Positions 2,324 through 18,970 of a stretch of 40,570 nt of DNA are shown piece after piece. The notes under the pieces are model-generated. The model saw nothing but the letters and a program-made list of their open reading frames with translations, did no database searches and was not told the origin of the DNA. The first letter of the stretch is position 1. Each line of letters starts with the position of its first letter. The stretch is taken from the NCBI GenBank assembly GCA_030539285.1, contig JAUNSH010000023.1, positions 1 to 40,570 of the forward strand, read 5' to 3'. The position numbers and the translations under genes were made by a program. This DNA comes from Eubacteriales bacterium (GTDB taxonomy: Bacteria > Bacillota > Clostridia > Oscillospirales > Oscillospiraceae).

Positions 2324-2368
2324 GTTGTTTACCTCCTGACAGACCGCAGCCTGTGTATTTCTGGTGCT

Positions 2369-2397: not shown

Positions 2398-2475
2398 TAG
2401 CGTTTCTTGTGGCAAAACATTGTGTTTCTTGCGCTTCCCCGCATCCACATTTTCCCCGCCTTTCGGCGCGGGATA

Positions 2476-3267
2476 TCAGGGCTGTTTGCCGATGTAGGCC
2501 AGGATACCGCCGTCAACGTACAGGATGTGGCCGTTGACGAAATTGGACGCGTCGGATGCCAGGAACACCGCAGGACCCGCCAGATCCTCCGCTTCGCCCC
2601 AGCGGCCAGCGGGAGTCTTGCCGATGATAAACTGGTCAAAGGGATGGCGGCTGCCGTCGGGCTGCTTCTCGCGCAGGGGCGCAGTCTGCTGGGTGGCGAT
2701 GTAGCCGGGGCCAATGCCGTTGCACTGGATGTTGGCGCCGCCGAACTCGGAGCAGATATTCTTGGTCAGCATTTTCAGGCCGCCCTTGGCTGCCGCGTAA
2801 CCGGCAACAGTCTCCCGTCCCAGTTCGCTCATCATGGAGCAGACATTGATGATCTTGCCGTGGCCCTTTTCCAGCATACCGGGCAGAACGGCCTTGGCGC
2901 AGATGAAGGGGGCGTTCAGATCAACGTCCACCACTTCCCGGAAATCCGCCACGCTCATTTCCAGCATGGGGATGCGCTTGATGATGCCGGCGTTGTTCAC
3001 CAGAATGTCGATGATGCCGTGTTCCTCCCGAATCTTTGCCACCAGGGCGTTCATTTCTTCCTCGCTGGTCACGTTGGCAACATAGCCGTAGGCGGTAATG
3101 CCCTCGGCGGCGTAGTTGGCTTCGCCCCGGACGCGGCTGCCCTCGCTGGTGCAGTTGAAGCAGACAGTAGCGCCGGCCTGGGCCAGGCCCTTGCCGATGG
3201 CAAAGCCGATGGAATGGGCACCGCCGGTGACCAGAGCCACCTTGCCGGTCAAGTCAAACATATTCAT
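2476..3267 (-). CDS. SDR-family dehydrogenase, probable KduD (2-keto-3-deoxygluconate-forming)
   Basis: This is a 263-residue classical short-chain dehydrogenase. It has TGGAHSIG (14-21) for the dinucleotide, NNAGI (91-95), and the catalytic S144, Y157 and K161 within YAAAK. It ends with GHILYVDGG, typical of the gluconate 5-dehydrogenase/KduD branch. In a locus with KduI and GH105 the expected reaction is reduction of 2,5-diketo-3-deoxygluconate to 2-keto-3-deoxygluconate. The insert around PLREKQPDGSRHPFDQFI resembles gluconate 5-dehydrogenases, so a related keto-gluconate substrate cannot be excluded. The ATG has a GGAGG site and lies one base after the TAA of the GH105 gene. Confidence 0.75.
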   Translation of the reverse strand: MNMFDLTGKVALVTGGAHSIGFAIGKGLAQAGATVCFNCTSEGSRVRGEANYAAEGITAYGYVANVTSEEEMNALVAKIREEHGIIDILVNNAGIIKRIPMLEMSVADFREVVDVDLNAPFICAKAVLPGMLEKGHGKIINVCSMMSELGRETVAGYAAAKGGLKMLTKNICSEFGGANIQCNGIGPGYIATQQTAPLREKQPDGSRHPFDQFIIGKTPAGRWGEAEDLAGPAVFLASDASNFVNGHILYVDGGILAYIGKQP

Positions 3268-3268
3268 T

Positions 3269-4408
3269 TTACTTTTCCTCCTTTTTCGTCAGCAGCAGCT
3301 CCGTATAGCACATCAGGAAGGGTGCCAAGCCCTTGGCATCGTTTTCCACAATGGGTTCGGAGATGTAGTATTCGTAAGAGCCATCCCGGCGGCGGTTGTT
3401 TTCCGGGCCGAGTCCGGCAACCAGGCAGATGCCGCCTAAGTTTAGCTTGCCGTCGGTTTCCGTCAGATACCGCTGGCAGATGCTTTCAAAGATTTTTTCG
3501 CCGGTTTCGGCATAGCTTGGATCCAGGATCCCCAGCCGGGCACCCTTCAGATAGAAGTAGGCCACCATGGCAGAGCCGGAGGTCTCCGGGTAGTTGCCCG
3601 GGCCACCCACGCGGTTGGGCACCTGCCAGAGCATTCCGCTGTCAGGATCAATGTAACGCAGTAGATTCTGTGCCAGCTCCCGGGCGATGGACACCATATC
3701 GCTGCGGAAGTCATCGTTTCCGGGGGCGATCTCGGCGGTCACATCGATGAGCGCGGCGCTGAACCAGCCCAGGCTTCTCAGCCAGGGATTCTTCGAGCAG
3801 CCGTCCTCCCCTGCCCAAAACGCGGTTTTGCTGGCATCATAGCCGTGGCGGTACAGTCCGGTCGCCGGGTCATACATATGCGTCCGGACATTGCGGAACT
3901 GGCGGCGGATGTCGGCATAGCCCGCGCCATCTTCAAACTGAGTGGTATAGCGGCAGTAAAACACTTGGGCCATATACAGGCCGTCCAGCCAGACCTGGTT
4001 GGGATAAATGGCCTTGTGCCAGAAATTGCCCTCTTCGGTTCTGGGCTGGCGCAGGATCTGACCGTGGAGGGTCTCGATGGCCTTGCGGTATTTTTCCTTC
4101 CCGCTCAGGGCATAGACGTCAAACAGCACCCGGCCTTCGCAGATATTGTCCAGATTGTATTCTTCCTCCCGGTATCCGCGGATGCTGCCGTCCTCAAAGA
4201 CATAGTAGTCCAGGAAATTCTCGGCAAAGTCGTAGTAACGCTTCTCCCCGGTGATGCGGTACATATTCAGCAGGGCGATCATCATGCAGCCGTCGATATA
4301 GTTCCAGCCGTTGACCTTTCCCTGGGCAATTTTTTCAATGTTCCACAGGGGCCGGTCCGGGGTGGACTCTGCCAGAATTCGGTTCAAATAGGCTTCGATC
4401 TGGTTCAT
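3269..4408 (-). CDS. GH105 unsaturated (rhamno)galacturonyl hydrolase, YteR/YesR type
   Basis: GH105 enzymes release the 4,5-unsaturated uronic acid from the non-reducing end of oligosaccharides produced by pectate or rhamnogalacturonan lyases. The product is 379 residues, the usual size, with the (alpha/alpha)6-barrel motifs of the family: GWNYIDGCMM (34-43), FWHKAIYPNQVWLDGLYMAQ (129-148) containing the likely catalytic D142 (equivalent to YteR D143), HGYDASKTAFWA (188-199), and GGPGNYPETSGSAM further on. No signal peptide is present, so it should act in the cytoplasm on imported products. Its ATG overlaps the TGA of the GH28 gene by four bases (ATGA), implying coupled translation. The released sugar would feed KduI. 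Confidence 0.92.
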   Translation of the reverse strand: MNQIEAYLNRILAESTPDRPLWNIEKIAQGKVNGWNYIDGCMMIALLNMYRITGEKRYYDFAENFLDYYVFEDGSIRGYREEEYNLDNICEGRVLFDVYALSGKEKYRKAIETLHGQILRQPRTEEGNFWHKAIYPNQVWLDGLYMAQVFYCRYTTQFEDGAGYADIRRQFRNVRTHMYDPATGLYRHGYDASKTAFWAGEDGCSKNPWLRSLGWFSAALIDVTAEIAPGNDDFRSDMVSIARELAQNLLRYIDPDSGMLWQVPNRVGGPGNYPETSGSAMVAYFYLKGARLGILDPSYAETGEKIFESICQRYLTETDGKLNLGGICLVAGLGPENNRRRDGSYEYYISEPIVENDAKGLAPFLMCYTELLLTKKEEK

Positions 4409-5946
4409 TGGTCGATCACCTCGTCAACTTGGATGGTGGTCAGCCGGTCACCTTCCTGACCGGACATGGTCACGTTTTTAAGCCGTACCTTCCGCACGCC
4501 GTTAAAATACAGGCCGCGCTTGCATTCTTTGTCGATATAGTCCATCATAGCCGGGAAGCCAGAGGAGGCGTCCTCCTTGAAGGTAAAGCTAACGTTTTCA
4601 ATGGCCACGCTGCCAATGGGCTGCTCGGTCAGGCCATAGAAATAGCCCGCCGCCCATTCGCAGTCCGTGCACTCCATGTCCCGGAACAGGAAGCTGCCCA
4701 GATAGGGCGTCCCGTCGTCCACAGGGTGAGGCTCCTTGCTCCATACGATCTCCTCGTGACCGTCCGGATCACAGAAGTAGTACATATTCATGACCAGCGG
4801 TGCCATCACGTTATCCATCTTGATGTTGGAGAAGGCCACGCCGTCGATGACGGCATATTTGCCCCGTCCCCGGCGGGTCTTGATTCGCAGGCCCCGGTCC
4901 GTATGCCGGAAATAGCACTGGGAAACCGTCAGATCCTTAACGCCGCCGGACATCTCGCTGCCCAGCACCATAGCGCCGTGGGCGTACTCCATCAGGCAGT
5001 TGCGGACCACATGGTTGGTGGCCGGGGTCTGGTACTTCATACCCATGTACATCTTGCCGGATTTGATGGCGATGGCATCGTCACCCACGGAGAAGCGCAT
5101 ACCGATATAGCACACATCGTCGCAGGATTCCGGGTCGGTGCCGTCGGTATTGGGGCTGTCCTTGGGGGCTTCCACGGCCGTGTTGTAGAAGTGCACATTC
5201 CGGCTGAAGAAGGGATGGAAGTTCCAGCAGGCGGAGTTTCTGCCTAAGATGCCATGGAAGCGGACATTCTCGCACTGGTTCAGGAACACCAGCTTGGGTC
5301 TTCCGATGGTGCGCTTCTTCACATCCTGCCACCAGGTGGAATTGACGGCGTTTCCGTCGATCACGCCCTGACCGACAATGGAAATGTTCTTCGCGTAGTG
5401 GGCACTGATGAAGCTCTGGCGGCAGGGGAAGGGATTTCCCTCCCAGGAGCTGAACTGCAGCGCCTCGCCCGTCCGGGCATCCAGCACTTCGCCGGGCAGA
5501 ATCGGATAGTGCTCCTCGCAGGTATCCCCCAGCAGCACCGCGTCCTTTTTCAGCTCCAGCGTCATGTCAGACTTAAGGACCAGTGGCCGGACATAGTAGG
5601 TGCCTTCCGGCACAGTAACTCTACCCCCCGCCGGGCAGCAGTTGATCGCATTCTGAATGGCTGCGGTATCGTCCGCAGCACCATCCCCCACAGCACCAAA
5701 ATCCTTAACACTGATGCAGGCGGATTCCTCCGCCGTGGTGATGGTCACAGTCTCCTCTCCGACCGCTACGGTATAAACCGTTCCGGGTTCCAGATCGAAC
5801 AGGGAAAAAACATTGGTGCGCACGCCCGTAAGGGCGGGCGCACCGTTCACTGTCACGTCGAAAGCAGCGTCCGCATAATACGGACTTGTATTTTCCAGTT
5901 CAAAGCAGGCCGAAACAGAGGAAACATACAGGTTGTGAAATTTCAT
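4405..5946 (-). CDS. GH28 polygalacturonase, probably exo-acting and intracellular
   Basis: The product hydrolyses alpha-1,4 bonds between galacturonic acid residues. It has 513 residues from the ATG at 5944-5946, chosen because a GAGG site lies 9 bases upstream; a GTG 15 bases earlier would destroy that site. Residues 1 to about 75 form a beta-rich, fibronectin-III-like N-domain, followed by the KDFGAVGDG opening of the parallel beta-helix. Catalytic motifs are intact: NTDGTD (266-271), GDD (288-290), HG (323-324) and RIKT (354-357). The FnIII-like domain ahead of the helix is known from bacterial exo-polygalacturonases, which suggests exo action. There is no signal peptide. It lies 51 bases after the ATPase gene, and a weak hairpin is present at 5976-5993. 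Confidence 0.92.
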   Translation of the reverse strand: MKFHNLYVSSVSACFELENTSPYYADAAFDVTVNGAPALTGVRTNVFSLFDLEPGTVYTVAVGEETVTITTAEESACISVKDFGAVGDGAADDTAAIQNAINCCPAGGRVTVPEGTYYVRPLVLKSDMTLELKKDAVLLGDTCEEHYPILPGEVLDARTGEALQFSSWEGNPFPCRQSFISAHYAKNISIVGQGVIDGNAVNSTWWQDVKKRTIGRPKLVFLNQCENVRFHGILGRNSACWNFHPFFSRNVHFYNTAVEAPKDSPNTDGTDPESCDDVCYIGMRFSVGDDAIAIKSGKMYMGMKYQTPATNHVVRNCLMEYAHGAMVLGSEMSGGVKDLTVSQCYFRHTDRGLRIKTRRGRGKYAVIDGVAFSNIKMDNVMAPLVMNMYYFCDPDGHEEIVWSKEPHPVDDGTPYLGSFLFRDMECTDCEWAAGYFYGLTEQPIGSVAIENVSFTFKEDASSGFPAMMDYIDKECKRGLYFNGVRKVRLKNVTMSGQEGDRLTTIQVDEVIDQ

Positions 5947-5997
5947 GCCTTTGTTCCTCACACTAAATTGATTGTGGGTTTCCTTGGAAGCCCTTCG

Positions 5998-7101
<1,104 letters not shown>

Positions 7102-7181
7102 AATCCGATACTCCTTATCAAACAAGTGGATGCGCGTACGCGATCCGTATGCGGTTCATAAAGCGGCGGTCGAAAGTACGG

Positions 7182-7781
7182 TCACGCTTTATTCCTGGCA
7201 TCCCGCCAGATCCGTTTCAGGGTGTTTTTGCACAGGACGAACAACAGGTCAAAGCCCATGCAGAAGACACCAAACAGAACCGGCTCCACACCCAGTGGCA
7301 CGGTGTCCGCGTTCCCGATGATCCAGACAGCTGCCCGGTTGATCATGCCATAGAAAGCATATACGCAACAGATCAGCACCAAGGCATAGACCATATTCAG
7401 GAAGAAACTGGTCATTCCCTTTTTGGGGAACATCAGCCATTTGTCGTTTTCGCCGTCGGCCGGTTCGATGAAACGGATCACATTATTGGTCAGCAGATCC
7501 GTCACCATACCCAGAACGATGCCCAGAATGAAAAGCATGTCGATGAGACTGTTCACATAGATCCCCAGTCCCCACAGGATGAAGTAGCACACCGCCCCGG
7601 CAAACCATGCCTTCAGCAGAACCACTTTTGCCGTGTTGGACAAATTGAATCTGCTTTTGGAGCGGTACTTTTTCAGCTCCTCCTCGGAAAATTCCGGCAC
7701 ATCGCCATTTTCCGCCTGTACCAGCTTTTCAACCGCGTCGCTTTTCAGTTCGTAATTTTTCTTATCCGTATTGTCGCTCAT
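7182..7781 (-). CDS. unassigned small membrane protein, fourth of the transporter-linked set
   Basis: I do not recognise this family. The 199-residue product starts at ATG 7779-7781 (MSDNTDKKNYELKSD), 16 bases after the previous stop. The longer frame would overlap the previous gene and has no ribosome site. It has a charged, acidic N-terminal tail of about 40 residues, then about four hydrophobic spans (near 45-65, 69-88, 125-147 and 165-188) and a basic C-terminus ending KRIWRDARNKA. The charge pattern suggests a cytoplasmic N-terminus. It sits directly ahead of a MalK-type ATPase and behind another small membrane protein, so a role in the pectin oligosaccharide transporter is inferred from position only. 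Confidence 0.75.
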   Translation of the reverse strand: MSDNTDKKNYELKSDAVEKLVQAENGDVPEFSEEELKKYRSKSRFNLSNTAKVVLLKAWFAGAVCYFILWGLGIYVNSLIDMLFILGIVLGMVTDLLTNNVIRFIEPADGENDKWLMFPKKGMTSFFLNMVYALVLICCVYAFYGMINRAAVWIIGNADTVPLGVEPVLFGVFCMGFDLLFVLCKNTLKRIWRDARNKA

Positions 7782-7797
7782 GTTGTTCCAGACCGGA

Positions 7798-8361
7798 TCA
7801 CTCGCTGATTTCAATGTCCGCCATGTCGCCGTTGTCCTCCACATCCACGGAGGTGTTGATCTTTCGGATCAGCTTGCTGTAGAGCGGCAGCGTCAGCACC
7901 AGCACAGCGGTCACACCGATGAGTACCAGGAAGGTTTGCAGCATGTTATAGGCATTGGCAATGTAGATGGTGCTGAGCTCCAGCTTGATGGGGCTTTCCG
8001 CCCGGGTCAGAGCAGCCATGATGGCGTTGCAGTAGTGGATATCACAGTAGACAACGATGCCAAACATCACGAACATCAGCACCACCATGGGAATGACCGG
8101 CTTTTTCCGAGTGGGGAAAGCGTTAAGCATGCACACCATGGACAAAAGCGTGAAGAGCATGATGCAGAACTGGCACAGTCCCATTCCCGTGCCCTGGATC
8201 TTTGCGGTGGTATTGGACATATTGGTGAGGTTAAAGGAATATACGATGAAGGAGATCAGCAGCATCACAAGCGGGATCACCTGGGGCTTCCGCTTCAGGG
8301 AAACCACCTGTTTCCGGAAGAAATCCCGGAATCCGGAGGACTTTTTCACGGTCTTACTCAT
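7798..8361 (-). CDS. unassigned small membrane protein, third of the transporter-linked set
   Basis: Family not recognised. The product is 187 residues with four predicted membrane spans (about 28-46, 62-82, 87-107 and 137-160). A basic N-terminus (MSKTVKKSSGFRDFFRKQ) suggests it starts inside the cell, and an acidic C-terminal tail (DVEDNGDMADIEISE) follows the last span. The second loop includes a DIHYCNAI segment with paired histidine/cysteine. The ATG overlaps the TGA of the upstream ATPase by four bases and has a GGAGGGG site, so expression is tightly coupled to that ATPase. No EAA loop of a canonical permease is visible. Role inferred from position only. Confidence 0.75.
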   Translation of the reverse strand: MSKTVKKSSGFRDFFRKQVVSLKRKPQVIPLVMLLISFIVYSFNLTNMSNTTAKIQGTGMGLCQFCIMLFTLLSMVCMLNAFPTRKKPVIPMVVLMFVMFGIVVYCDIHYCNAIMAALTRAESPIKLELSTIYIANAYNMLQTFLVLIGVTAVLVLTLPLYSKLIRKINTSVDVEDNGDMADIEISE

Positions 8362-9443
8362 ACTTTCCCCTCCATTTTGATGGCGCAGGTGGTTTCCTTG
8401 TCAAAGAAGTGCTTCCGGGTGACGCTGATGGAAGCCACATCGCCGTTGTGATAAGTGCACCAACCGTTCAGCTTACAGGTGACCTTCTCACCCTTGCCGT
8501 CTGCGCCAAGATGGCCGTGTACCAGGGTGTTCATGCCCAGATTCTCGTTGTTGATGACCTTCATCTGGAATTCGCTGCCCACCTTGGTGTTCTCAGGACG
8601 GATGCCCAGCACCACTTCTTTTCCTACATAACCTGCCAGCGCTTTCTTTTCAGAGGCTGTCAGGGGCAAGGTCATGTACTCGGACACCACCCGGTCGGCT
8701 TCCACCTTTACATCCACGAAATTCATGGGCGGCAGGCCGATAAAGCTGGCCACGAACAGGTTCGCCGGCTCGTCGTACAGCTCCAACGGTGTACCGATCT
8801 GCTGGACATGGCCCATGGACATACACACGATGCGGTCAGCCAGGGTCAGAGCCTCGGTCTGGTCATGGGTGACGTAGAGCATGGTGGCGTTGAGCCGCTT
8901 GTGCAGCAGCAGGATCTCTCTTCTGGTGGCGCTTCTGAGCTTGGCGTCCAGATTAGAAAGCGGCTCGTCAAACAGGAACAGCTTGGGGTTCCGGACGATG
9001 GAACGTCCCATTGCCACACGCTGGCGCTGACCGCCGGAAAGCTGGGCAGGCTTCTTGTTCAACTGCTCCATCAGTCCCAGGACTTCCGCCGCTGCCAGAA
9101 CCTTCTGATGGATGACGTTGGGGTCTTCCTTGCGCAGGGTCAGAGAAAACGCCATGTTTTCGTAGACGGTCATATGGCCGTACAGGGCGTAGTTCTGGAA
9201 CACCATGGCGATATCCCGGTCCTTAGCGGGGGCATCGGTGACATCCTTGCCGTCCAGGAGCATCTTGCCCCGGGTAATGTCCTCCAGACCTGCTACCATC
9301 CGCAGGGTGGTGGACTTGCCGCAGCCGGAGGGGCCGACCAGAACGATCAGCTCGCCGTCCTTCACGTCGAGGTTAAAATCAAAAACAGCCTGAACATTAT
9401 TGTCATAGACCTTTTCCAGGTGCTGTAAACTCAATTCTGCCAT
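8358..9443 (-). CDS. ABC transporter ATPase, MalK/MsmK/UgpC type (second of two)
   Basis: This 361-residue ATPase subunit is paralogous to the one at 5998-7101. It has Walker A GPSGCGKST (37-45), Q-loop VFQNYALYG, LSGGQRQ (135-141), Walker B LFLFDEP with E160, H-loop YVTHDQ, and a C-terminal TOBE region with GIRPENTKVG. Motifs fall at identical residue numbers in both proteins, yet the flanking sequence differs widely. They could form a heterodimer or serve separate membrane partners. It is flanked by pairs of small membrane proteins, with a four-base overlap downstream and 13 bases upstream. The ATG has a GAGGTG site. Catalytic residues are complete. Confidence 0.93.
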   Translation of the reverse strand: MAELSLQHLEKVYDNNVQAVFDFNLDVKDGELIVLVGPSGCGKSTTLRMVAGLEDITRGKMLLDGKDVTDAPAKDRDIAMVFQNYALYGHMTVYENMAFSLTLRKEDPNVIHQKVLAAAEVLGLMEQLNKKPAQLSGGQRQRVAMGRSIVRNPKLFLFDEPLSNLDAKLRSATRREILLLHKRLNATMLYVTHDQTEALTLADRIVCMSMGHVQQIGTPLELYDEPANLFVASFIGLPPMNFVDVKVEADRVVSEYMTLPLTASEKKALAGYVGKEVVLGIRPENTKVGSEFQMKVINNENLGMNTLVHGHLGADGKGEKVTCKLNGWCTYHNGDVASISVTRKHFFDKETTCAIKMEGKV

Positions 9444-9456
9444 ATCATTTCACCTC

Positions 9457-9948
9457 TCAAGCTGCCGGATTTTCAATGGAACGCATGTAATCTGCCAGGA
9501 TCTTGTTGTTTCTGGCGCTGGTCACCGCGGCAATGATGCAGCAGACCGCGGACAGTATCAGACAGGTCACGACATAGATATACTGCTTGCTGCCCATGAC
9601 CGGTACATCCACACCGCCGACCAGAGCAGTGGCGGCATGGGCCTTTGCCGGCAGGAAGAATACCCGGGCGATCTGGATCAGTCCCAGAACCACGAGCACG
9701 GGAGCGTATCCATTTCTGCGGTTTTTCACGCTCTCCGACGCCAGAAACGCGGCCAGCAGGAAAATCAGATTGTAAACGATGGAAACGCCGATCACCCAAT
9801 TATAATAGTAGGTTCCAACGTCAGATTGATAGATGCTGACAAAGTAAAGGCAATCCAGTACGATAGCCAGCAGCACCAGGGAGGACGAGAAGCTGTCCTT
9901 GGTGTAGCGCATACGGTCTTTCTGGATGGTCTGAACATCCTGTGTCAT
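9457..9948 (-). CDS. unassigned small membrane protein, second of the transporter-linked set
   Basis: Family not recognised. From the ATG at 9946-9948 (MTQDVQTIQKDRMRYTKDSF) the product has 163 residues and four hydrophobic spans at about 22-41, 48-68, 80-98 and 122-143. The ATG overlaps the upstream stop by four bases and is preceded by AAGGAGG within the upstream gene. The long frame extending back to 10113 has no start signal and is not used. There is a small extracellular or lumenal loop around GGVDVPVMGSKQYIYV. It lies directly before an ATPase gene, mirroring the position of the 7182-7781 gene before the other ATPase. Confidence 0.75.
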   Translation of the reverse strand: MTQDVQTIQKDRMRYTKDSFSSSLVLLAIVLDCLYFVSIYQSDVGTYYYNWVIGVSIVYNLIFLLAAFLASESVKNRRNGYAPVLVVLGLIQIARVFFLPAKAHAATALVGGVDVPVMGSKQYIYVVTCLILSAVCCIIAAVTSARNNKILADYMRSIENPAA

Positions 9949-10538
9949 GCCACTGCCTCCTTTCCGGCCTCGATCAGTGCGTCCTCCGCCTTCATGAGCT
10001 GGAGCTTCCAGATCATGTTGCCGATCAGCGCTGCCACAGACAGCAGGGAAATGGCGGCAACGGCGTAATGCAGGTCGAGCATGAAGGTCGATTCGATATA
10101 GGTCTTGTTCCACATCTCAGCAAAGGCTTTCAGGGCCTCAAAATCCACAGTGGTCAGATACTGAACCTTAAAGGCGGAGATCTCCACATGCGCCCAAATG
10201 GTAACGGCGATCGTGGCAATGCTGTAGATGGCGATGGAAATATAGTTGCCGATGTAATACTTTCTGCGCACCTGGGTGTTCATGAGATAGAGCAGGCAGG
10301 CCGCCAGGATCAGTCCGACGCTGACGTTGGTGTACAGCTTATTGAAGTCCTGCATATCATAGTAGATAACGGAGCCGGGCACAAAGGTCTGCGTCAGATC
10401 GTTAGGATTCATCATTGTGGCGTACAGACTGTCATAGATGTCTGTGATGATGCCGAGGGAATAGAGGAAGGAAACCGCGGCCGCGATCACCGCGAACAGG
10501 CATACATATTTTTGGAAAACCAATTGTTTCTTGTACAT
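9945..10538 (-). CDS. unassigned small membrane protein, first of the transporter-linked set
   Basis: Family not recognised. The 197-residue product starts at ATG 10536-10538 (MYKKQLVFQKYVCLF) after a GGGGGT site. It has four hydrophobic spans (about 10-31, 70-88, 97-114 and 155-178). Two longer polar loops, at about 32-69 (IYDSLYATMMNPNDLTQTF and onwards) and 115-154, probably face outside. It ends with an amphipathic tail KAEDALIEAGKEAVA. It opens the membrane/ATPase block 140 bases after the binding-protein gene, from which it is separated by two hairpins. No permease EAA loop is visible. Function is inferred from position only. Confidence 0.75.
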   Translation of the reverse strand: MYKKQLVFQKYVCLFAVIAAAVSFLYSLGIITDIYDSLYATMMNPNDLTQTFVPGSVIYYDMQDFNKLYTNVSVGLILAACLLYLMNTQVRRKYYIGNYISIAIYSIATIAVTIWAHVEISAFKVQYLTTVDFEALKAFAEMWNKTYIESTFMLDLHYAVAAISLLSVAALIGNMIWKLQLMKAEDALIEAGKEAVA

Positions 10539-10589
10539 AATGACCCCCCGTCGAAAGCTTTTCCAATTGCAAGGAGACACTTTCGCGTC

Positions 10590-10666
10590 AATTGCGTCTT
10601 CGCAATTCAACTATTCTTACAGAAGTTTTGTCTGCCGCGGCAGGCAGGAACGCCTGCCGCGGACAA
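10590..10666 (-). other. two hairpins between binding-protein gene and membrane block
   Basis: The larger hairpin (10628-10666) has an 11-bp perfect GC stem (10635-10645 with 10652-10662), a 6-base loop and an outer TTGT/ACAA pairing. The second (10590-10607) pairs AATTGCG with CGCAATT across four bases. Neither is followed by a U-run in the transcribed direction. They look like mRNA stabilisers or partial attenuators that keep binding-protein mRNA more abundant than the downstream genes, a common arrangement in sugar ABC operons. Confidence 0.55.
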
Positions 10667-10678
10667 TGGGGACGAAGA

Positions 10679-12817
10679 TCAGTTCAGAGTTGCGTAGTAG
10701 GAGGTCAGACGCTCCCATGCCTGCTCTCTCAGAGCCAGGTACTGGGCGCCGCCCCAGGTGTTCTGAACCATCTGCACCGCATCCTCAGCGGAGTTCATGC
10801 CATCCTCGGTGTAGCCGGAGGCAATGATGGACACCAGCATGTTGGAGCCGTCCTTGTTCTGGTCGAACTTGGTCTTCAGATCGGTGTAGCTGTTGATCAT
10901 ATCGTTCTCGACCGTGGTGTTGGGCAGAACGGTGGGGACGATGGTGTACCAGGGGTTCTCGCACAACGCCAGCTCAGGATGCTTGATGGTGCCCAGGGCA
11001 ATGGCGGTGGAGATGTGTCCGGCGCCTTCCTTGCCGACCTCGTGGGTGCACTGGAACTCAAAGGCCTGGCTCTTGGCGAAGGACAGGGTGGAACCCAGAT
11101 ACTGACGGGCATAGTTGGTGTAGTTGCCGGCAGCCTTCTCCCACAGCTCCGCATAGGTGGCATCGGAGATCACAGGCATCTGGGCACCGTTGAACATGAA
11201 GGTCTCACCGGTCTTGATGAAGGCATCGGGGCCGTAGGACATGAGGATCTGACCCTCGGGGCTAAAAGCGTAGTCAATGAGCTTCAGAGCGGCGTTCAGC
11301 TTGTCGGTATCGCCGGCAACGCCCTTGGCAGAGATGCCCCAGCCATCGGTCTTGACACTGCGCCAGGACTCGGTGAAGCGCATATACTTCTCTTCGCCGT
11401 CATTCCAGCGGGCAACAGGCACCATAACGGCCATGTACTTCTCGCCTTCCTGCAGCTTGGTCTCGTTGTATACGGTCTGAGTCTGGTTGTAGTCATAGTG
11501 CATGAAGCCCAGGTCGTTTTCCAGCATGGTAGCGGTGGACTCCTCGGACATATCGATGAAGGACTTGGAGATCAGGCCCTCAGCGGCGATGTCGTTCATC
11601 CGCTCCATGGCCTCATAGGTGGACAGGTCGGTACGGGCATCGTGGAGCTGACCGTCGGTGCCGACATACAGGTAATCCTGACGGGACTCCAGACCGCGGA
11701 CACCGAACAGAGTGCCGGCGAAGCGGAACATATCAACGCGGCGCTGGTTGTTGTTGTCCTCACGGGAGAACAGGCCCTGGACGGAATCGGTGCCGTTCAG
11801 TGTCTGGGCATTGGCCACCACGCAGCGCAGCAGAGCGACCAGCTCGTCGGCGTCCCACGCGGCATTCTGGCCGATGAAGAGGTTGGAACGCTCGGTGCCG
11901 TAGTAACCAGCATAGGCTTCATCGATGTAGGTACGCAGCATATTGACAGCGGCGACACCGTCAACGGTGCCGGCAGCCAGAGCTTCGTTCATCTTGGCAA
12001 CGATGTTGCCGACGGTATCGTAATCCTTGGTCACAGTCTCAACGGCGGTGCCTTCCAGGTTGACAACGTCAATCTGAACCTTGCCGGAGGTGGGCATATA
12101 GGGCTCGTAGGCGGCGGGCTTCAGCGTGCCGCACTTTTCGGCGGTGAACTCACCCTCGCCGTCCAGCAGCTTGGAGACCCAGTCCACACGCATCAGAGGC
12201 ATACGCTCGATGTCGTTGACGCCGTCAAAATAGGGGGAGAAGTAGATAGCACCGGTGGAGGTGTTGCCGGTAATGGACAGACGGACGATGGGGTTGGCTT
12301 CCAGATAGGCCTTGAAGTTGGGCATCTGATCAAGATACTCGGCGATGTTCACCAGAGAACCTGCCTCGCCGTACTCGGTCAGAACAGTCGCGGTGCCGCT
12401 GACCATGTCAACCTCGTTCAGGCGGTCCTTCCAGAACTCGAACTCCTTGGAAGCACTGTTGCCCTGGTACTTGTCTTCAAAGACCATGCCCAGACGGTTC
12501 TGCACCTCCACCCAGGTGGGCTTCAGATCGCCGGTCTGGTAGGTGACGCCGTCGGCCAGGGTGATACCTTCACCGGCCACGTCGGCGCTGAAGAACAGGC
12601 CGGTCTTGGTGCTGTTGTAGCCGGTGGCCATCCGCAGCACGGTTCCGGGAGCAAAGGTCAGCTCAGCTGCCGCTGCCGCCTCAGTAGCCGCGGGAGCAGC
12701 CGCGCCGGCGGTCTCAGCGGGAGTCTGAGCAACTTCCAGCTTGTTACCGCCGCAGCCGGCCAGCAGCGCTGCCAGCATGGACGCAACCAGAATAATGGAA
12801 AATACACGTTTCATCAT
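10679..12817 (-). CDS. sugar-binding lipoprotein of the LplB/LplC-type importer, unusually long
   Basis: This extracytoplasmic solute-binding protein should be anchored by lipid and capture oligogalacturonides. It is 712 residues, longer than the roughly 500-560 usual for LplA-like proteins. A signal peptide with lipobox LLAGC places the lipidated cysteine near residue 22, followed by an Ala/Thr/Glu-rich linker (about 27-55), typical of lipoprotein tethers. The mature part has binding-protein features such as DWVSKLLDGEGEFT-like and WGISAKGVAGDTDKLNAALKLIDY segments and a C-terminal AVQMVQNTWGGAQYLALREQ. Two adjacent ATGs (12815-12817, 12812-12814) follow AAGGAG, and the second has the better spacing. 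Both permease genes lie directly upstream. Substrate is inferred from context. Confidence 0.85.
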   Translation of the reverse strand: MMKRVFSIILVASMLAALLAGCGGNKLEVAQTPAETAGAAAPAATEAAAAAELTFAPGTVLRMATGYNSTKTGLFFSADVAGEGITLADGVTYQTGDLKPTWVEVQNRLGMVFEDKYQGNSASKEFEFWKDRLNEVDMVSGTATVLTEYGEAGSLVNIAEYLDQMPNFKAYLEANPIVRLSITGNTSTGAIYFSPYFDGVNDIERMPLMRVDWVSKLLDGEGEFTAEKCGTLKPAAYEPYMPTSGKVQIDVVNLEGTAVETVTKDYDTVGNIVAKMNEALAAGTVDGVAAVNMLRTYIDEAYAGYYGTERSNLFIGQNAAWDADELVALLRCVVANAQTLNGTDSVQGLFSREDNNNQRRVDMFRFAGTLFGVRGLESRQDYLYVGTDGQLHDARTDLSTYEAMERMNDIAAEGLISKSFIDMSEESTATMLENDLGFMHYDYNQTQTVYNETKLQEGEKYMAVMVPVARWNDGEEKYMRFTESWRSVKTDGWGISAKGVAGDTDKLNAALKLIDYAFSPEGQILMSYGPDAFIKTGETFMFNGAQMPVISDATYAELWEKAAGNYTNYARQYLGSTLSFAKSQAFEFQCTHEVGKEGAGHISTAIALGTIKHPELALCENPWYTIVPTVLPNTTVENDMINSYTDLKTKFDQNKDGSNMLVSIIASGYTEDGMNSAEDAVQMVQNTWGGAQYLALREQAWERLTSYYATLN

Positions 12818-12844
12818 GATTTCTCCTTTTCATTTTTTTCATAA

Positions 12845-12860
12845 CATCGGGGGGCCGATG
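12845..12860 (-). other. short hairpin between permease and binding-protein genes
   Basis: CATCGG and CCGATG pair across four G residues between the LplC-type gene stop (12862) and the ribosome site of the binding-protein gene. It is too short for a terminator. It may mark an mRNA processing point that raises binding-protein expression. Confidence 0.35.
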
Positions 12861-12861
12861 G

Positions 12862-13752
12862 TTATTCCTTCACACCGCCCACATTGACGCCCTTGGCGAA
12901 ATACTTCTGAATAAAGGGATAAATAATCAGGATCGGTACAATAGAGCATACGATCAGAGCATAAATGACGGAATCCGACGCATAGACCTTGTTCCAGCCT
13001 GCCATAGCTTCGGGATCGGTGAACTCCTCCAGCTTCAGACGGATGAACACCTGCAGCGGATGCTCGTTGGCGTTGGAGATCATCTGCCGCGCCCAGAAAT
13101 AGCCGTTCCAGCGGGAGATGGCGAAGAACAGCGCCACGGTGGCAATGGTGGACTTGGACATGGGAATGTAGACCTTGGACAGCACCTGGAACTCTGTGGC
13201 GCCGTCCACGATGGCGGCCTCCTCGATATCGGAGGGAACGCCTTCAAAGGCGTTTCTCAGCAGGATGATGTTCATGGCCGCCATGCCCATGGCAATGACC
13301 ACCAGCCACTTGTCATCCATGATGCCAACGCTGTTGAAGACTTCCTTGGTGTTCAGGTAGTTCAGGTACTGGGGCACAATACCTGCGGAGAACCACATGG
13401 TAAAGACCAGGAAGAAGTTGAAGAACCGCCGGAACAGCAGCCGCTTCTTACTCAGTGCGTAGGCACCCAGGATGGACACGCCCAAGGCCCAGACCGTACC
13501 GTAGACCGTCAGGAACAGGGTGTTGGAGTAGGCGTTCCAGAACATATTGTCGTTGAACATTTGGGAAAAGGCTTCAAACTGAATGTCCTTGGGGAACAGA
13601 ATGATCTCACTGTAATCCACCGCGTGCTGTCCGCTGATGGCAGCGGAGATGGCATACACAAAGGGATAAAGGCAGCACAGTGCGAACATTGTCAGCAAAG
13701 TGTAGCTGATAATTTTGAAAATCAGTTCAGAAGCTTCAAGCTTTCTTTTCAT
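12862..13752 (-). CDS. carbohydrate ABC permease, YtcP/LplC type
   Basis: This 296-residue inner-membrane permease has six hydrophobic spans and the cytoplasmic EAA loop EEAAIVDGATEFQVLSKVYIP (starting 177) that docks the ATPase. The sequence between helices (WFSAGIVPQYL, ILLRNAFEGVP) is typical of the YtcP/LplC branch, which imports complex oligosaccharides such as pectin and other plant-wall fragments. It pairs with the LplB-type permease 12 bases upstream. The ATG has a perfect AAGGAGG site. Confidence 0.92.
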   Translation of the reverse strand: MKRKLEASELIFKIISYTLLTMFALCCLYPFVYAISAAISGQHAVDYSEIILFPKDIQFEAFSQMFNDNMFWNAYSNTLFLTVYGTVWALGVSILGAYALSKKRLLFRRFFNFFLVFTMWFSAGIVPQYLNYLNTKEVFNSVGIMDDKWLVVIAMGMAAMNIILLRNAFEGVPSDIEEAAIVDGATEFQVLSKVYIPMSKSTIATVALFFAISRWNGYFWARQMISNANEHPLQVFIRLKLEEFTDPEAMAGWNKVYASDSVIYALIVCSIVPILIIYPFIQKYFAKGVNVGGVKE

Positions 13753-13764
13753 GCCCGGGCCTCC

Positions 13765-14823
13765 TTAATATAGCGATACATCCGATGCTCTGCGGGCAAT
13801 GGCGTTGGAGCCGATGACCAGCATCATACCGATCACGTTGCTCATCATTTCTGCCGCCGAGGCAAGACCCTGAGCCGAAGAAGAGCCAAGGCCGTAGCGC
13901 TGGGCGAAGGTGGAGACAACGTCCGCGGTGACATAGGTGTTGGGATTGTACAGAAGCAGGACCTTCTCGTAGCCGATCTGCAGCAGAGAACCGATCCGGG
14001 TGATCAGCATGATGACCACAGTGGACAGGATGGCGGGCAGCACCACATAGCGCATCTGTGCCATTTTGTTGGCGCCGTCGATCTGTGCCGCTTCGTAGCT
14101 GGTGGGAGAGATGGCGATGATAGCCGCGAAGAACACGATGCTGTCGTAGCCGGCAGTCTCCCAGATACCGCTGATCTGGTAGATGGCCCGGAAGAAGCTG
14201 GGATTGTTCAGCAGGCCCGCGTTAGCGACCTCCGCCGATATGGCGCCGATACTGTAAAGTCCCCGGGACAGAATGCCCATGCTGGAGGTCAGGGAGCCCT
14301 GCTTGACCAGCATCGTGACCAGGGAGGTCATAACGACGGTGGAGATAAACTTGGGCAGGTAGGTCAGCACCTGATAAACGCTGCGCAGGAGATTGGACTT
14401 GATCTCATTGAAGAACAGTGCCAAGATGATCGGCACAGGGAAGCCGAACAGCAGACCGTAGAAGCTCAGCAGGAAGGTGTTGCGCAGTGCCCGCCAGAAT
14501 TCGGTGGACAGGCCGTCGCCGCTGAACAGCAGGCGCTTAAAATAGGAGAAGCCGGAGAAGAACTGGTCGGCTACAGGCTTGACCTCATCAGAGACCTTGA
14601 AGCAGCCCAGCAGTTCATACATCGGGAAGTATCTCCAGAACAGGAAGACCAGGATCATCGGAATCAGCATGATGTACAAGCGCCAGTCCTTCAGCACCGT
14701 CTGCGCGACGTGCTTCCAGTAGTGCTTTTCCACATCATCGCGCACCAGCTGTTCTGGATTCGCCCGGTAGGTTTTTGAGGACTTATCGTAGATCAGAAAG
14801 TCCCCAGCCAAGGTTTTTTTCAA
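13765..14823 (-). CDS. carbohydrate ABC permease, LplB type
   Basis: This 352-residue permease is the partner of the LplC-type protein. It has an N-terminal cytoplasmic stretch of about 45 residues, then six hydrophobic spans and the EAA loop YEAAQIDGANKMAQMRYVVLP (from 243). The start is a TTG at 14821-14823, which overlaps the upstream TGA (TTGA) and lies 7 bases after an AGGGGAG site. No ATG gives a comparable start. The N-terminal extension, longer than the usual few residues before the first helix, is a feature of this copy. Four-base stop/start overlap with the membrane protein gene upstream implies coupled translation. Confidence 0.92.
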   Translation of the reverse strand: MKKTLAGDFLIYDKSSKTYRANPEQLVRDDVEKHYWKHVAQTVLKDWRLYIMLIPMILVFLFWRYFPMYELLGCFKVSDEVKPVADQFFSGFSYFKRLLFSGDGLSTEFWRALRNTFLLSFYGLLFGFPVPIILALFFNEIKSNLLRSVYQVLTYLPKFISTVVMTSLVTMLVKQGSLTSSMGILSRGLYSIGAISAEVANAGLLNNPSFFRAIYQISGIWETAGYDSIVFFAAIIAISPTSYEAAQIDGANKMAQMRYVVLPAILSTVVIMLITRIGSLLQIGYEKVLLLYNPNTYVTADVVSTFAQRYGLGSSSAQGLASAAEMMSNVIGMMLVIGSNAIARRASDVSLY

Positions 14824-15407
14824 AACGGTTCTCCCCTTTCAACTTGCTGCTCCTGTTGAATGCGGAGCAGGTAGTGTTTTTGGTCTTCGAAAAGACCCTC
14901 TATCCGACGGACGACCCAGACGATGAAGGCGGTAAACAAGATCGACAGGACATCCGTCGTAATAAAGCCAAGACATACTGCGGCAGAGTATCCGAACAGG
15001 GCTGCCATCCCCGCCCGGCCCAGCTGCATCAGAAGCTGGGTTGCAATTGCGAACACGATGCATAAGAAGCCATCCTTCCGCAGCCGCTCCTTGCCCCAGA
15101 TCCGGAACATGAGCAGGGCCAGCAGGGACGCCAGGTTGCCGATTCCGTAGATCAGCAGCTGCTGCCAGCTTCCGCCGGACAGCGCCGCGTAAAGCAGGCC
15201 GCCCAGCACCGCGTGAATTGCCGCCCAGCCGCTCCAGCGCATCATGACCAGCGCCGTCATTCCCGCCACCGGGGACACCACATACAGCTGCTCCGGATAC
15301 CAGAACGAGGTAGCCAGGTGGATCAGGTACTGACAGACCACCAAAACAGCCGCCAGGATGCTCAGATCAATGGCACGGTACTGGCCGAAGGAAATTTGAC
15401 GATCCAT
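14820..15407 (-). CDS. S-component-like integral membrane protein upstream of LplB
   Basis: This 195-residue protein has five or six hydrophobic spans (about 14-33, 40-58, 60-75, 82-102, 112-135 and 140-165) and a charged C-terminal tail (RRIEGLFEDQKHYLLRIQQEQQ) that is probably cytoplasmic and helical. The small-residue-rich SPVAGMTALVMMRWSGWAAIHAVLGG stretch and overall size resemble substrate-binding S components of energy-coupling-factor transporters, but I cannot assign a ligand. No ECF ATPase or EcfT lies nearby. Translation is coupled to lplB by the TTGA overlap, so a role with the importer is plausible. The ATG has a GGAGGTG site. Confidence 0.65.
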   Translation of the reverse strand: MDRQISFGQYRAIDLSILAAVLVVCQYLIHLATSFWYPEQLYVVSPVAGMTALVMMRWSGWAAIHAVLGGLLYAALSGGSWQQLLIYGIGNLASLLALLMFRIWGKERLRKDGFLCIVFAIATQLLMQLGRAGMAALFGYSAAVCLGFITTDVLSILFTAFIVWVVRRIEGLFEDQKHYLLRIQQEQQVERGEPF

Positions 15408-15409
15408 TT

Positions 15410-16291
15410 TCAGCCACCTCCCTGATTGCCCCGGTTGACCCAGGAAGCTCTCCCCGGAACTGCCGGGGTCTCATAAAAGCGGGCTGTTTTGTCACGGCAG
15501 GTATCGTTCCACTTATCGAAGCCCTCTGGCGCGATGTGGGGGCCATAGCCGCAATCTTCAAAGGCAGCCATACCGAAATCCCGCCAGGGCCGGGCCAGAT
15601 ACACGCTTCCGTCTGCCAGGGCTTCATCGCCGGTGAACCGGCACTGCCGGAACAGGAATCCGGAGACCTGATCCTCACTGTGGGCGGGAGCGGCCACAAA
15701 GCCATGGCCCCGTACATCCCACACCGAGTGCAGCCAGCACCTGTCAAACAGCGCGTCGCCGCAGCCGAAGATAAAATCCACGCTGCCCTCGATCCGGCAA
15801 TCCCGGAAGGTCTGCCGGAACGGCCCATCCCGCCGCAGCTCATCGTTCAGGAAGCCATCATAGCGGGCAATGAGATCCGGCGGCAGCGGCCCAAGGAACA
15901 GGGTATCCTGGGTAGAGCGCAGGATGCAGCTTTCCATTTGAAAGCCGTCCGCACAGACGCTCAGCGCCACCTCCTGCCCCTTGACCTCAGGGCGGAGCGC
16001 GTCGTTTTCCACCAACAGGTCCCGCATAGTCACATTGTCGGCACAAACCGCCATCGTGTAGGTTCGGAAGGTGACGTAAGCCACGCCCTGATCATCCAAT
16101 TTTTCGGCATAGTCGTCATAGACGATTTTGGTTTTCTCCGCTCCGGCACCGATAATGGTCAGCCCCGGGGTGCGAATCACAGTCTTCTGCCGGTATTCCC
16201 CCGGCGACAGGCAGATCACGCTGCCCGGCGCGGCCGCGTCAAACAGCCGCTGCAGATCGTCCGCGGGGGATGCCTGAATGGTGTTGCTCAT
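15410..16291 (-). CDS. pectinesterase, CE8 family, apparently cytoplasmic
   Basis: CE8 enzymes hydrolyse methyl esters of galacturonic acid residues, releasing methanol. The product has 293 residues and the right-handed beta-helix signatures: GQEVALSV (105-112), STQDTLF (126-132, D129 as acid), VDFIFG (171-176, D172 as nucleophile) and YLARPWRDFG (231-240, R234 and W236). Most bacterial pectinesterases are exported, but this one begins MSNTIQASPADDLQRLF with no signal peptide or anchor. It would therefore demethylate imported oligosaccharides before the GH28 enzyme. It starts four bases after the kduI stop with a weak ribosome site, so it probably relies on translation from kduI. Confidence 0.93.
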   Translation of the reverse strand: MSNTIQASPADDLQRLFDAAAPGSVICLSPGEYRQKTVIRTPGLTIIGAGAEKTKIVYDDYAEKLDDQGVAYVTFRTYTMAVCADNVTMRDLLVENDALRPEVKGQEVALSVCADGFQMESCILRSTQDTLFLGPLPPDLIARYDGFLNDELRRDGPFRQTFRDCRIEGSVDFIFGCGDALFDRCWLHSVWDVRGHGFVAAPAHSEDQVSGFLFRQCRFTGDEALADGSVYLARPWRDFGMAAFEDCGYGPHIAPEGFDKWNDTCRDKTARFYETPAVPGRASWVNRGNQGGG

Positions 16292-16295
16292 GGAC

Positions 16296-17132
16296 TTACA
16301 GCAGTTCCGAAGTGGGGATGCCGTCCATGTCGTCGAAGTCCTGATTCTCGCCGCACATACCCCAGATGAAGGTATAGTTTGCGGTGCCCACGCCGGAGTG
16401 GATGGACCAGCTGGGAGAGATCACAGCCTCCTCATTGTGCATTACGATGTGCCGGGTCTCCTTGCCCTGACCCATCATGTGGAACACAGCCTGATCGGGG
16501 GCAATGTCAAAGTAGAAGTAGACCTCCATCCGGCGCTCGTGGGTGTGGCTGGGCATGGTGTTCCAGACGTTGCCGGGAAGCAGGGCCGTCATGCCCATGC
16601 TCAGCTGGCAGCTTTCGCAGACAGCGGGATGGATGTACTGGCGCAGGATCCGCTCATTGACGGTCTCCTGAGCGCCCAGATGGTTGTATCTGGCCTTGTC
16701 CATGGGAATGAGGACCGTGGGGCAGGTACGGTGGGCGGGGCAGGAATTGATGTAGAACTTGGCGGGGTTGGCCTTGTCCACGGACTTGAAGACCAGCTCC
16801 TTGGCGCCCATTCCCACATAGATGCCGTCCCGGTTTCCGATGGGATACTCCACACCGTCCACCGTCAGGGTGCCCGCGCCGCCGACGTTGATGGCGCCCA
16901 GCTCCCGGCGTGCCAGGAAGTAGGGGGCCGCCAGCTCCTTGCAGCTCTCCAGCACCAGGGCCTGCTCCACAGGCATGATGCCGCCGGCAATGATCCGGTC
17001 CTGATGGGAATAGGTCAGGTTGATCTCGTCCGGTACAAAGATACCGGAAATGTGGTAATGACGGCGAAGCTCAGCGGTATCATACCGCCGGGAATCGTCG
17101 GGGTGGTTGGCGTAACGAACGTCAAAATTCAT
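16296..17132 (-). CDS. kduI: 5-keto-4-deoxyuronate isomerase KduI
   Basis: KduI isomerises 4-deoxy-L-threo-5-hexosulose uronate, the open form of the unsaturated sugar freed by GH105, to 2,5-diketo-3-deoxygluconate. From the ATG at 17130-17132 ([10 protein letters not shown]) the protein is 278 residues, the same as E. coli KduI. The zinc ligands fall at identical positions: H196 and H198 in [11 protein letters not shown]203, and H245 in SWSIHSG. It also has [19 protein letters not shown] and [11 protein letters not shown]. The start has a GGGAG site; the longer frame would overlap the upstream gene. It lies one base after the TIM-barrel stop. Confidence 0.97.
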
Positions 17133-17133
17133 A

Positions 17134-18184: not shown

Positions 18185-18970
18185 TTACTCTTCCAATTCG
18201 ATACGGCTGGGATCCTGCTGGTAGATCGTGTTGCGTTTCTTGGAATAACTGGTAGGAGAGCAGCCGTAATACTTTTTAAATACCCTCGAAAAATACAGGG
18301 CATCCTCAAATCCGCACATATGGGCGATCTCAGAAATGCTGTATGCATTGGCCCACATGGTGGTCAGCAAGGTCTCCGCGTTTTTCATCCGCAGCTTCGT
18401 CAGGTATTCCAGCGGGGAGATCCCCACCTCCTTCTTGAACAGCTTGCGCAGGTAGTCATAATGGAAGGGCATCCCCCGAATGACCTCATCCAGCGCGTAA
18501 TCCGATCGGCAATAGTTCCTTCGGATGCTGGCGCAGAGTTTTTCCACCGGCTCGGACAGCCCTTCGTTGCTGTGGAAGACGATCATATAACCGACGATCA
18601 GGTCTCCCAAAGCGGAGAGCACCAGCTCCGCGTTTTTAAAATCGCCCATATAAAAATACCTGGCCTGCATAAACGCCATCTTCATATTTCCCTCATCGTC
18701 GTCCGAGATCCGGAAGCAGGTCTTATAGGAAAAGGATGGATCCGCCATGGTCACATATATATTGGTAAATCCCTCTTCACTGGAATTGGCATGGACCTGC
18801 CTGGGAGGAATGGCAACCACGTCTCCCGCCTGATAGTGAATGACAGAACCGTTTTCAAACTTGAACGCGCCCTGACCGCTGGTACAGTAGACCAGTTCCC
18901 AATGCTCGTGGGTGTGGCGGCGGACATCAAAGGTCCGCGGGTGTTCGCCCACAAACAAGATCGTATTCAT
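18185..18970 (-). CDS. AraC-family transcriptional regulator of the pectin locus
   Basis: This 261-residue regulator starts at ATG 18968-18970 (MNTILFVGEHPRTF) after GGAGGGG, overlapping the esterase stop by four bases. The N-terminal cupin-like sensor has HTHEHWELVYCTSGQGAF and YQAGDVVAIPPRQVHAN. The C-terminal half carries two helix-turn-helix motifs, ending with the AraC signature SISEIAHMCGFEDALYFSRVFKKYYGCSPTSY. Such proteins usually sense a sugar and activate nearby catabolic genes. The pectin operon promoter just downstream has a weak -35, consistent with activation. The ligand (a galacturonide or a deoxyketouronate) is inferred. Confidence 0.9.
   Translation of the reverse strand: MNTILFVGEHPRTFDVRRHTHEHWELVYCTSGQGAFKFENGSVIHYQAGDVVAIPPRQVHANSSEEGFTNIYVTMADPSFSYKTCFRISDDDEGNMKMAFMQARYFYMGDFKNAELVLSALGDLIVGYMIVFHSNEGLSEPVEKLCASIRRNYCRSDYALDEVIRGMPFHYDYLRKLFKKEVGISPLEYLTKLRMKNAETLLTTMWANAYSISEIAHMCGFEDALYFSRVFKKYYGCSPTSYSKKRNTIYQQDPSRIELEE

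Follow-up and report, generated by a model that had tools for sequence, protein, structure and literature searches.

The 40,570-nucleotide stretch of DNA analysed here (the window; positions 1 to 40,570 of contig JAUNSH010000023.1, assembly GCA_030539285.1, from an Eubacteriales bacterium of the Oscillospiraceae) carries a pectin cluster with a transport cassette at its centre. The cassette encodes five small membrane proteins (S195 and TM1 to TM4), two permeases (LplB and LplC), a substrate-binding protein (SBP) and an ATPase (ATP1), and a second ATPase (ATP2) belongs to the same cluster. The nine genes recur in one order in Clostridia, Erysipelotrichaceae and Spirochaetales. We propose that these ten proteins probably constitute one enlarged CUT1-type importer for the uronic-acid oligosaccharides of pectin, in which the ATPases are dedicated and the accessory membrane subunits obligatory. 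In the window, the genes are arranged as follows.

14820..15407, minus strand: S195, small membrane protein, no assigned family, first gene of the cassette; 4-base overlap with LplB
13765..14823, minus strand: LplB, CUT1-type permease with EAA loop (Pfam BPD_transp_1)
12862..13752, minus strand: LplC, CUT1-type permease with EAA loop (Pfam BPD_transp_1)
10679..12817, minus strand: SBP, substrate-binding lipoprotein, 712 aa, distant relative of AlgQ1/AlgQ2
10539..10678, minus strand: RNA hairpin region between SBP and TM1
9945..10538, minus strand: TM1, 197 aa, about four spans, no assigned family
9457..9948, minus strand: TM2, 163 aa, about four spans, no assigned family
8358..9443, minus strand: ATP1, 361 aa, MalK/MsmX-type ATPase (ABC_tran and OB_MalK), likely dedicated clade
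7798..8361, minus strand: TM3, 187 aa, about four spans, no assigned family
7182..7781, minus strand: TM4, 199 aa, about four spans, N-terminal tail of about 50 residues (tentatively cytoplasmic), no assigned family
5998..7101, minus strand: ATP2, 367 aa, second MalK/MsmX-type ATPase, likely dedicated clade, position in the cluster varies

A profile of TM1 retrieved 340 relatives among 84,980 species genomes. The follow-up covered 80 of these relatives, with hosts in the Oscillospiraceae, other Clostridia, Lachnospiraceae, Erysipelotrichaceae/Solobacterium and Spirochaetales (Bullifex porci among them), and 85 loci were analysed (L014-L018 and L020-L099; L019 was dropped as it holds no cassette). 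Two of them (L014 and L076) come from the same genome, and the window itself stands outside the set. Gene order was read from six-frame open reading frames (ORFs). The order S195-LplB-LplC-SBP-TM1-TM2-ATP1-TM3-TM4, all on one strand, was found in 59 of the 60 loci that extend far enough in both directions (one duplicate included), while the sixtieth (L066) departs from it solely by a split LplB. Counted by side, the order is kept in 61/62 loci upstream and in 78/78 over TM1 to TM4. The fixed order spans Clostridia, Erysipelotrichaceae and Spirochaetales and is retained where TM1 is merely 44-81% identical, hence recurrence of the block is more than chance. The flanking pectin enzymes and regulator change place and strand around this core, within which the genes are tightly packed (median gaps of -4 bases for TM1/TM2, -4 for S195/LplB and 2 for ATP1/TM3). 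An earlier note on this DNA had named a single occurrence among genomes as grounds for giving up the idea of a module, and this is not what we observe.

In a sample of 150 genomes from the same family, 6 contained a match to TM1 and 7 a match to TM3. Five genomes besides that of the window match both, and all five contain the whole block in the same order. G049 was rejected as a carrier, having a weak TM3 match only and, upon inspection, no cassette gene. The TM4 profile matched 28/400 genomes of the family sample and 5/391 of the class sample (G213 and G382 counting by search match alone), the TM2 profile 7/295 genomes of the order sample, and the TM1 profile 1/398 genomes of the phylum sample, this one being the window's own. 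The TM4 match in G1367 was false, as the locus is an ordinary LplB/LplC cluster. A mobile-element origin was discarded, with 0 matches of TM1 in 72,556 plasmid records and 50,697 phage records, and no TM3 relatives were found in viral contigs. In an unrooted tree of the concatenated cassette proteins, five Spirochaetales loci form one clade and four Erysipelotrichaceae loci another, both placed among Clostridia, which suggests transfer of the cassette between gut bacteria. No description of such a cassette was found in searches of the open PMC library, which contains no preprints and few subscription papers.

Both ATPases contain the OB_MalK domain of CUT1 ATPases (TOBE_2 was detected by Pfam in ATP2 only), and MsmX (PDB 6yir) is their best structural match. 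ATP1 lies between TM2 and TM3 in 78/78 loci read that far. ATP2 is present in all loci (57/57) whose sequence continues for 6.4 kb or more beyond TM4, at a position that varies across 67 loci. It follows TM4 by no more than 100 bases in 17 of them; in another 49 it lies 0.6-5.2 kb downstream, usually with GH28, GH105 and AraC genes in between, and in a single case it precedes the cassette. The window had previously been read as containing a repeated unit of two membrane proteins and one ATPase. As ATP2 adjoins TM4 in only 17/67 loci, in contrast to the fixed ATP1, this is not a repeated unit; ATP1 belongs inside the cassette core and ATP2 to the wider cluster.

Phylogenetic analysis places ATP1 and ATP2 in one clade each, distinct from the further MsmX-like ATPases that were sampled in their genomes, in both of two trees (support 100/100 each in the first and 100/99 each in the second). 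The second tree was computed without the long branches L156, L165 and L174, without ten cassette ATPase rows of G-numbered genomes present in the first, and with longer versions of L162 and L169. In this tree, 13 of 14 other MsmX-like rows form a clade of their own, and the embedded ATPase of a divergent cassette (described below), which has a long branch, is placed next to ATP1 with support 90/66. Walker A, Walker B and H-loop are intact in ATP1 (79/79) and ATP2 (67/67), as is the LSGGQRQR motif in 79/79 and 66/67 sequences, respectively. Residues D77, R104, E110 and K154 of MsmX were mutated by Leisico et al. (excerpt of PMC7658222) as a putative signature of multitask ATPases, located where MsmX contacts the permease. 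Taking the signature as given in that excerpt, ATP2 retains none of the four residues (0/67 at each position). ATP1 retains D77 (80/80), R104 (80/80) and K154 (72/80), with V replacing E110 throughout (80/80). Neither ATPase therefore has the full MsmX-type signature, and the two differ from each other in this docking region. A control set of 17 other MsmX-like sequences contains D77 in 16, R104 in 8, E110 in 12, K154 in 14, and all four in 5. The separate clades and the signature losses together indicate that both ATPases are likely dedicated, ATP2 more clearly so. Each cluster thus holds ATPases of two apparently dedicated clades, in place of the one ATPase gene acting as a homodimer, or the shared multitask ATPase, of the CUT1 plan; we infer that the two would pair as an ATP1:ATP2 heterodimer.

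The permeases follow the CUT1 family closely, with two BPD_transp_1 proteins that both possess the EAA coupling loop (EAA.[ILV]DGA; 66/66 for LplB and 74/74 for LplC). The SBP, for which Pfam gave no match, has the features of a CUT1 binding lipoprotein, i.e. a match to AlgQ1/AlgQ2 at E ~1e-9 and a lipobox-like LLAGCG near the N-terminus, and contains ~100 additional residues between two AlgQ-like stretches. Hence, of a conventional binding protein next to two EAA-loop permeases, as the cluster had been described, the permeases stand, while 'conventional' overstates the case for a 712-residue SBP with only distant AlgQ likeness. By these family features the core would work as a CUT1 importer, departing from the classical plan in its more than single ATPase gene. 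A conserved N-terminal extension of LplB ahead of the first span (PEQ.VRDDVEKHYW) was observed as a candidate contact.

For the small membrane proteins, the earlier note's account was largely reproduced. Sizes (197, 163, 187 and 199 residues) and coordinates of TM1 to TM4 are as given there, and about four spans per protein are seen in family-averaged hydropathy, a simple scan and not a trained predictor. The absence of EAA loops extends to the families, with an EAA-like string in 1/86 TM1, 0/83 TM2, 0/80 TM3 and 0/80 TM4 sequences. Overlap or near overlap of these genes with the ATPases was likewise found: by their coordinates, ATP1/TM3 overlap by 4 bases (as do TM1/TM2), and the remaining gaps TM2/ATP1, TM3/TM4 and TM4/ATP2 measure 13, 16 and 80 bases. 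The fifth small membrane protein S195 (14820-15407), overlooked at the time, is part of the conserved set. A match to a known family, the other outcome held to speak against a module, was not obtained. No Pfam or NCBIfam model scored above cut-off for TM1 to TM4 or S195 of the window, no Pfam family appeared in more than two of 58 relatives of the five small families at E up to 0.01, and PDB profile searches with TM1, TM2, TM3, TM4 and S195 returned no convincing solved structure. The matches to EMC4, an ER membrane complex subunit (S195, E about 0.01), EI24 (E 0.0008 in 1/58 members), ThrE (E 0.003 in two of 58) and Acyl_transf_3 (window TM2, E 0.003) were considered unconvincing. Fourfold duplication of one family was also rejected: among the five small-protein profiles and LplB/LplC, no pair exceeded an hhalign probability of 8, except LplB-LplC, which served as positive control at 81. 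The TM4 family has a conserved N-terminal tail, another candidate contact, which we tentatively place on the cytoplasmic side.

A strong RNA hairpin is predicted in the window gap between SBP and TM1 (10539-10678; z -5.2). In related loci, scoring gaps of 50-250 nt against 40 simple shuffles each, z fell below -2 in 72/76 SBP-TM1 gaps, 44/44 TM3-TM4 gaps and 12/56 LplC-SBP gaps. No Rfam match was found in window positions 2000-20500. The hairpins possibly set subunit ratios.

The pectin cluster occupies the minus strand from the esterase/AraC end through to a short-chain dehydrogenase. In the order of that strand, esterase, AraC regulator, TIM-barrel protein, KduI and pectinesterase precede S195, which is followed by LplB, LplC, SBP, TM1, TM2, ATP1, TM3, TM4 and ATP2; beyond ATP2 are GH28, the GH88/GH105-type enzyme and the dehydrogenase.

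18967..19821, minus strand: alpha/beta-hydrolase esterase
18185..18970, minus strand: AraC-family regulator
16296..17132, minus strand: KduI, 5-dehydro-4-deoxyglucuronate isomerase
15410..16291, minus strand: pectinesterase (CE8)
4405..5946, minus strand: GH28 polygalacturonase-like enzyme
3269..4408, minus strand: GH88/GH105-type unsaturated glycuronyl hydrolase (Pfam Glyco_hydro_88)
2476..3267, minus strand: short-chain dehydrogenase (NCBIfam gluconate 5-dehydrogenase above cut-off, KduD models below theirs)

The adjoining GH28, GH88/GH105-type enzyme, pectinesterase and KduI point to (unsaturated) oligogalacturonides as the substrate. At least one of GH28, GH105, pectinesterase and KduI is present in 73/86 sources (the 85 loci and the window), many of which end at contig ends. 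Several of the 13 sources lacking a pectin marker are contig fragments or AT-rich loci missed by the gene caller. Enzyme counts are too low for the AT-rich Spirochaetales loci L055, L057, L059, L062, L077 and L086, as genes are missed there. The L075 locus encodes a beta-helix protein together with a pectin acetylesterase, and L097 has a GH42 gene and a gene of the GH105 cluster. Just upstream of the L097 cassette, a PTS_EIIC membrane domain is fused to an EAL (c-di-GMP phosphodiesterase) domain (L097:1511-3601). L087 is a clear case without pectin-enzyme markers: the ten cassette genes stand alone with ATP2 last (L087:4934-14563), and the flanking genes scanned are of housekeeping type (TsaD/IspD-type and Lon/M3-peptidase/Sir2-type). 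The suggestion of a general accessory module beside varied sugar enzymes gains a little from L087 and from one divergent cassette, and loses by the pectin marker in 73/86 sources.

The divergent cassette occurs in G077, which has a normal cassette and, elsewhere (L202), a second one ordered LplB'-LplC'-SBP'-TM1'-TM2'-ATP'-TM3'-TM4' (coordinates L202:6812-18867 and L237:2044-16032, with an IclR regulator). LplC' is 54% identical to the window LplC. TM1', TM2' and TM4' match the profiles of their own positions (hhalign E 1.1e-5, 3.4e-7 and 2.4e-13), with E values of at least 0.12 against non-counterparts, save for TM1' versus TM3 at 0.043. The enzymes at this cassette are a DUF4962 and a Hepar_II_III/Alginate_lyase protein; further along come a dehydrogenase, an ORF of 4210 aa whose start is signal-like, and another MsmX-like ATPase. 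G1237, from another family, has a deep version with S195, a 964-aa SBP and the usual order, in which GH28 and a GH88/GH105-type enzyme adjoin TM4, and ATP2 (67% identical) is found ~5.6 kb upstream of S195. Given such divergent and deep versions, one of them beside other polysaccharide-lyase-like enzymes, this gene arrangement may predate the link with pectin, with one case of other enzymes seen.

An expanded importer was one of the options raised in the earlier note and is the best supported. The families are without match in the libraries searched, and the block recurs. From the gene order and co-occurrence we infer a physical complex in which the SBP lipoprotein would capture an acidic oligosaccharide and hand it to the LplB-LplC channel. 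ATP1 and ATP2 would dock on this channel as an asymmetric pair and power transport, and TM1, TM2, TM3, TM4 and S195 would surround the core as obligatory accessory membrane subunits. The conserved TM4 tail and the TM1-TM3 loops are candidate contacts to the ATPases and the SBP; the loops could meet the SBP, with its ~100 additional residues. Where the CUT1 plan has no further membrane subunits, five candidate subunits are encoded in a fixed line with the core in 59/60 loci. A more far-reaching version, which we offer as a tentative and rather speculative extension, would be a new ten-protein ATP-binding cassette (ABC) importer comprising LplB-LplC, an obligate ATP1:ATP2 heterodimer, five supernumerary membrane subunits and the SBP. 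It would take up uronate oligosaccharides that are long or acidic, and a second subtype would be adapted to other uronate polysaccharides. To our knowledge, no CUT1-derived importer that combines two different ATPases with a surrounding layer of accessory subunits has been described, and such a ten-protein machine, if true, would be the first.

Evolutionary rates were compared across the cassette. Mean distances (56-64 loci) are 0.16 for LplB, 0.14 for LplC, 0.18 for ATP1, 0.20 for ATP2, 0.30 for SBP and 0.39-0.50 for the small proteins, with 0.29-0.40 for the enzymes (41-51 loci) and 0.54 for the regulator. LplB/LplC are thus the slowest-evolving parts of the cassette, which would fit many contacts. 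Distances correlate with those of LplB/LplC at r 0.73-0.83 for the small proteins, 0.79 for SBP, 0.64 and 0.69 for ATP1 and ATP2, and 0.50-0.75 for enzymes and regulator. Cassette LplC proteins (reciprocal best pairs in six genomes) are 78-88% identical (15 pairs), a comparison with ordinary importers that is suggestive only, since other LplC-like proteins span 25 to 97% (24 pairs).

Several observations count against a single enlarged importer. Co-evolution by distance correlation had to be discarded as an argument, for it does not separate the cassette proteins from the enzymes: values for the small proteins are little better than those of enzymes and regulator, and those of the ATPases no better. 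Strict co-linearity also fits a shared regulon. Loci were found via TM1, such that LplB/LplC of the same clade without TM proteins could escape detection. Loss of the multitask signature, clear for ATP2, is weak evidence for ATP1, because the signature is itself incomplete in the 17 comparison sequences. In the divergent G077 cassette, TM3' matched none of the cassette profiles by hhalign, TM3 included (0.07), and no S195 is seen. About 18 kb separate TM4' from the next MsmX-like ATPase downstream, which falls among MsmX-like proteins of the general kind, so that the evidence for a dedicated ATPase pair does not extend to the divergent type.

Three other explanations were considered. TM1 to TM4, with or without S195, could form a separate membrane assembly of the same regulon, serving as scaffold, sensor or assembly factor that organises importer, esterases and cytoplasmic enzymes while the ATPases serve LplB-LplC only. 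The small proteins do lack EAA loops and evolve ~3x faster than LplB/LplC, about as fast as the enzymes, and the hairpins in the SBP-TM1 and TM3-TM4 gaps could give different expression levels. The genes of the small proteins are, however, order-locked and partly overlap ATP1 and LplB, unlike the mobile genes of enzymes and regulator; ATP1 always sits between TM2 and TM3 where the DNA extends far enough (78/78), and L087 keeps all ten genes without pectin-enzyme markers. We therefore regard a separate assembly as unlikely.

Still less probable, in our judgement, is the third option of the earlier note, in which TM1 to TM4 and one ATPase make up a second, independent transporter beside a normal LplB-LplC importer run by the other ATPase. 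Two ATPases and four extra membrane proteins would be accounted for, and ATP2, as it differs from multitask ATPases at the four docking-region positions, could have a docking partner that is not a standard CUT1 permease. Yet both ATPases are of the MalK/MsmX type with an OB_MalK domain, the small proteins have no EAA-type coupling loop (one chance-like string in 86 TM1), and ATP2 is linked to no pair of TM proteins. The positional mobility of ATP2 might instead mark it as a general MsmX-like sugar-importer ATPase parked in the pectin cluster, with ATP1 homodimers powering the importer, and the ATPase downstream of the G077 divergent cassette does group with general MsmX-like proteins. Against this, ATP2 forms a separate, fully supported clade with none of the signature residues in 67/67 sequences. 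Furthermore, the window genome has one additional MsmX-like ATPase (E <1e-70) besides ATP1 and ATP2, and five related genomes have 5-8 MsmX-like matches each, ATP1 and ATP2 included. A general role for ATP2 is accordingly very improbable to us, and an enlarged importer with two dedicated ATPases remains our preferred model.

In the usual description, a type I ABC importer has a binding protein, a pair of permease domains and a pair of ATPase domains. The alginate importer AlgM1M2SS-AlgQ2 (PDB 4tqu, 4xig, 4xtc) resembles the cassette in having two permeases and a MalK-type ATPase: its binding protein is distantly akin to the SBP (AlgQ1/AlgQ2, E ~1e-9), AlgS is related to the cassette ATPases, and an acidic oligosaccharide substrate would be shared, the cassette's being deduced from its enzymes. 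By the PDB chain names, AlgS is one ATPase present twice, and this importer is not known to have further membrane subunits; the cassette, in contrast, has two different ATPases, five extra membrane proteins and an SBP ~200 residues longer. TogMNAB, a CUT1-type oligogalacturonide importer, differs from the cassette in being made up of a binding protein, two permeases and one ATPase. Two different ATPases per importer are known from the Opp/Dpp peptide importers and from ECF importers, the latter with small S subunits in addition, whereas the cassette ATPases are MalK/MsmX-type with OB_MalK and the permeases CUT1-type. An ECF-type importer finds no support by family match, since neither S195 nor the TM proteins matched an ECF S or T family in Pfam or NCBIfam; ATP2 reached about half the cut-off of the NCBIfam ECF_ATPase models. 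Small multi-span proteins of unknown function also occur beside LplB-type sugar importers as YesL/DUF624, a membership that was discarded as none of the 58 proteins scanned from the five small families matched the DUF624 model (E up to 0.01). Separately, a 483-aa ORF in G1367 (L236:3420-4868) lies beside an ordinary LplB/LplC pair, and its start may resemble a DUF624/YesL protein by its motif.

In B. subtilis, YtcQP-YteP and YesOPQ with MsmX are importers of polygalacturonan and rhamnogalacturonan fragments (excerpt of PMC5730181), and MsmX is tabulated twice with YtcP, YteP and YtcQ (excerpt of PMC11466899). According to these excerpts, the shared MsmX is used as two identical subunits, 'most likely' so for YesOPQ, and they mention no extra membrane subunits for either system (PMC5730181, PMC11466899). 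ATP1 and ATP2, by comparison, fall outside the clade of general MsmX-like ATPases.

The conservation, in a single order from Bacillota to Spirochaetota, of five extra membrane proteins and two distinct ATPases suggests that importers of difficult acidic oligosaccharides can be far more elaborate. Our model also assigns a role that can be tested to the five small families, which have none in the libraries searched, and L087 provides a good minimal ten-gene set for expression. Many cassette records are, going by their titles, from herbivore gut, and the cassette would mark out a guild of pectin-importing bacteria in rumen and hindgut.

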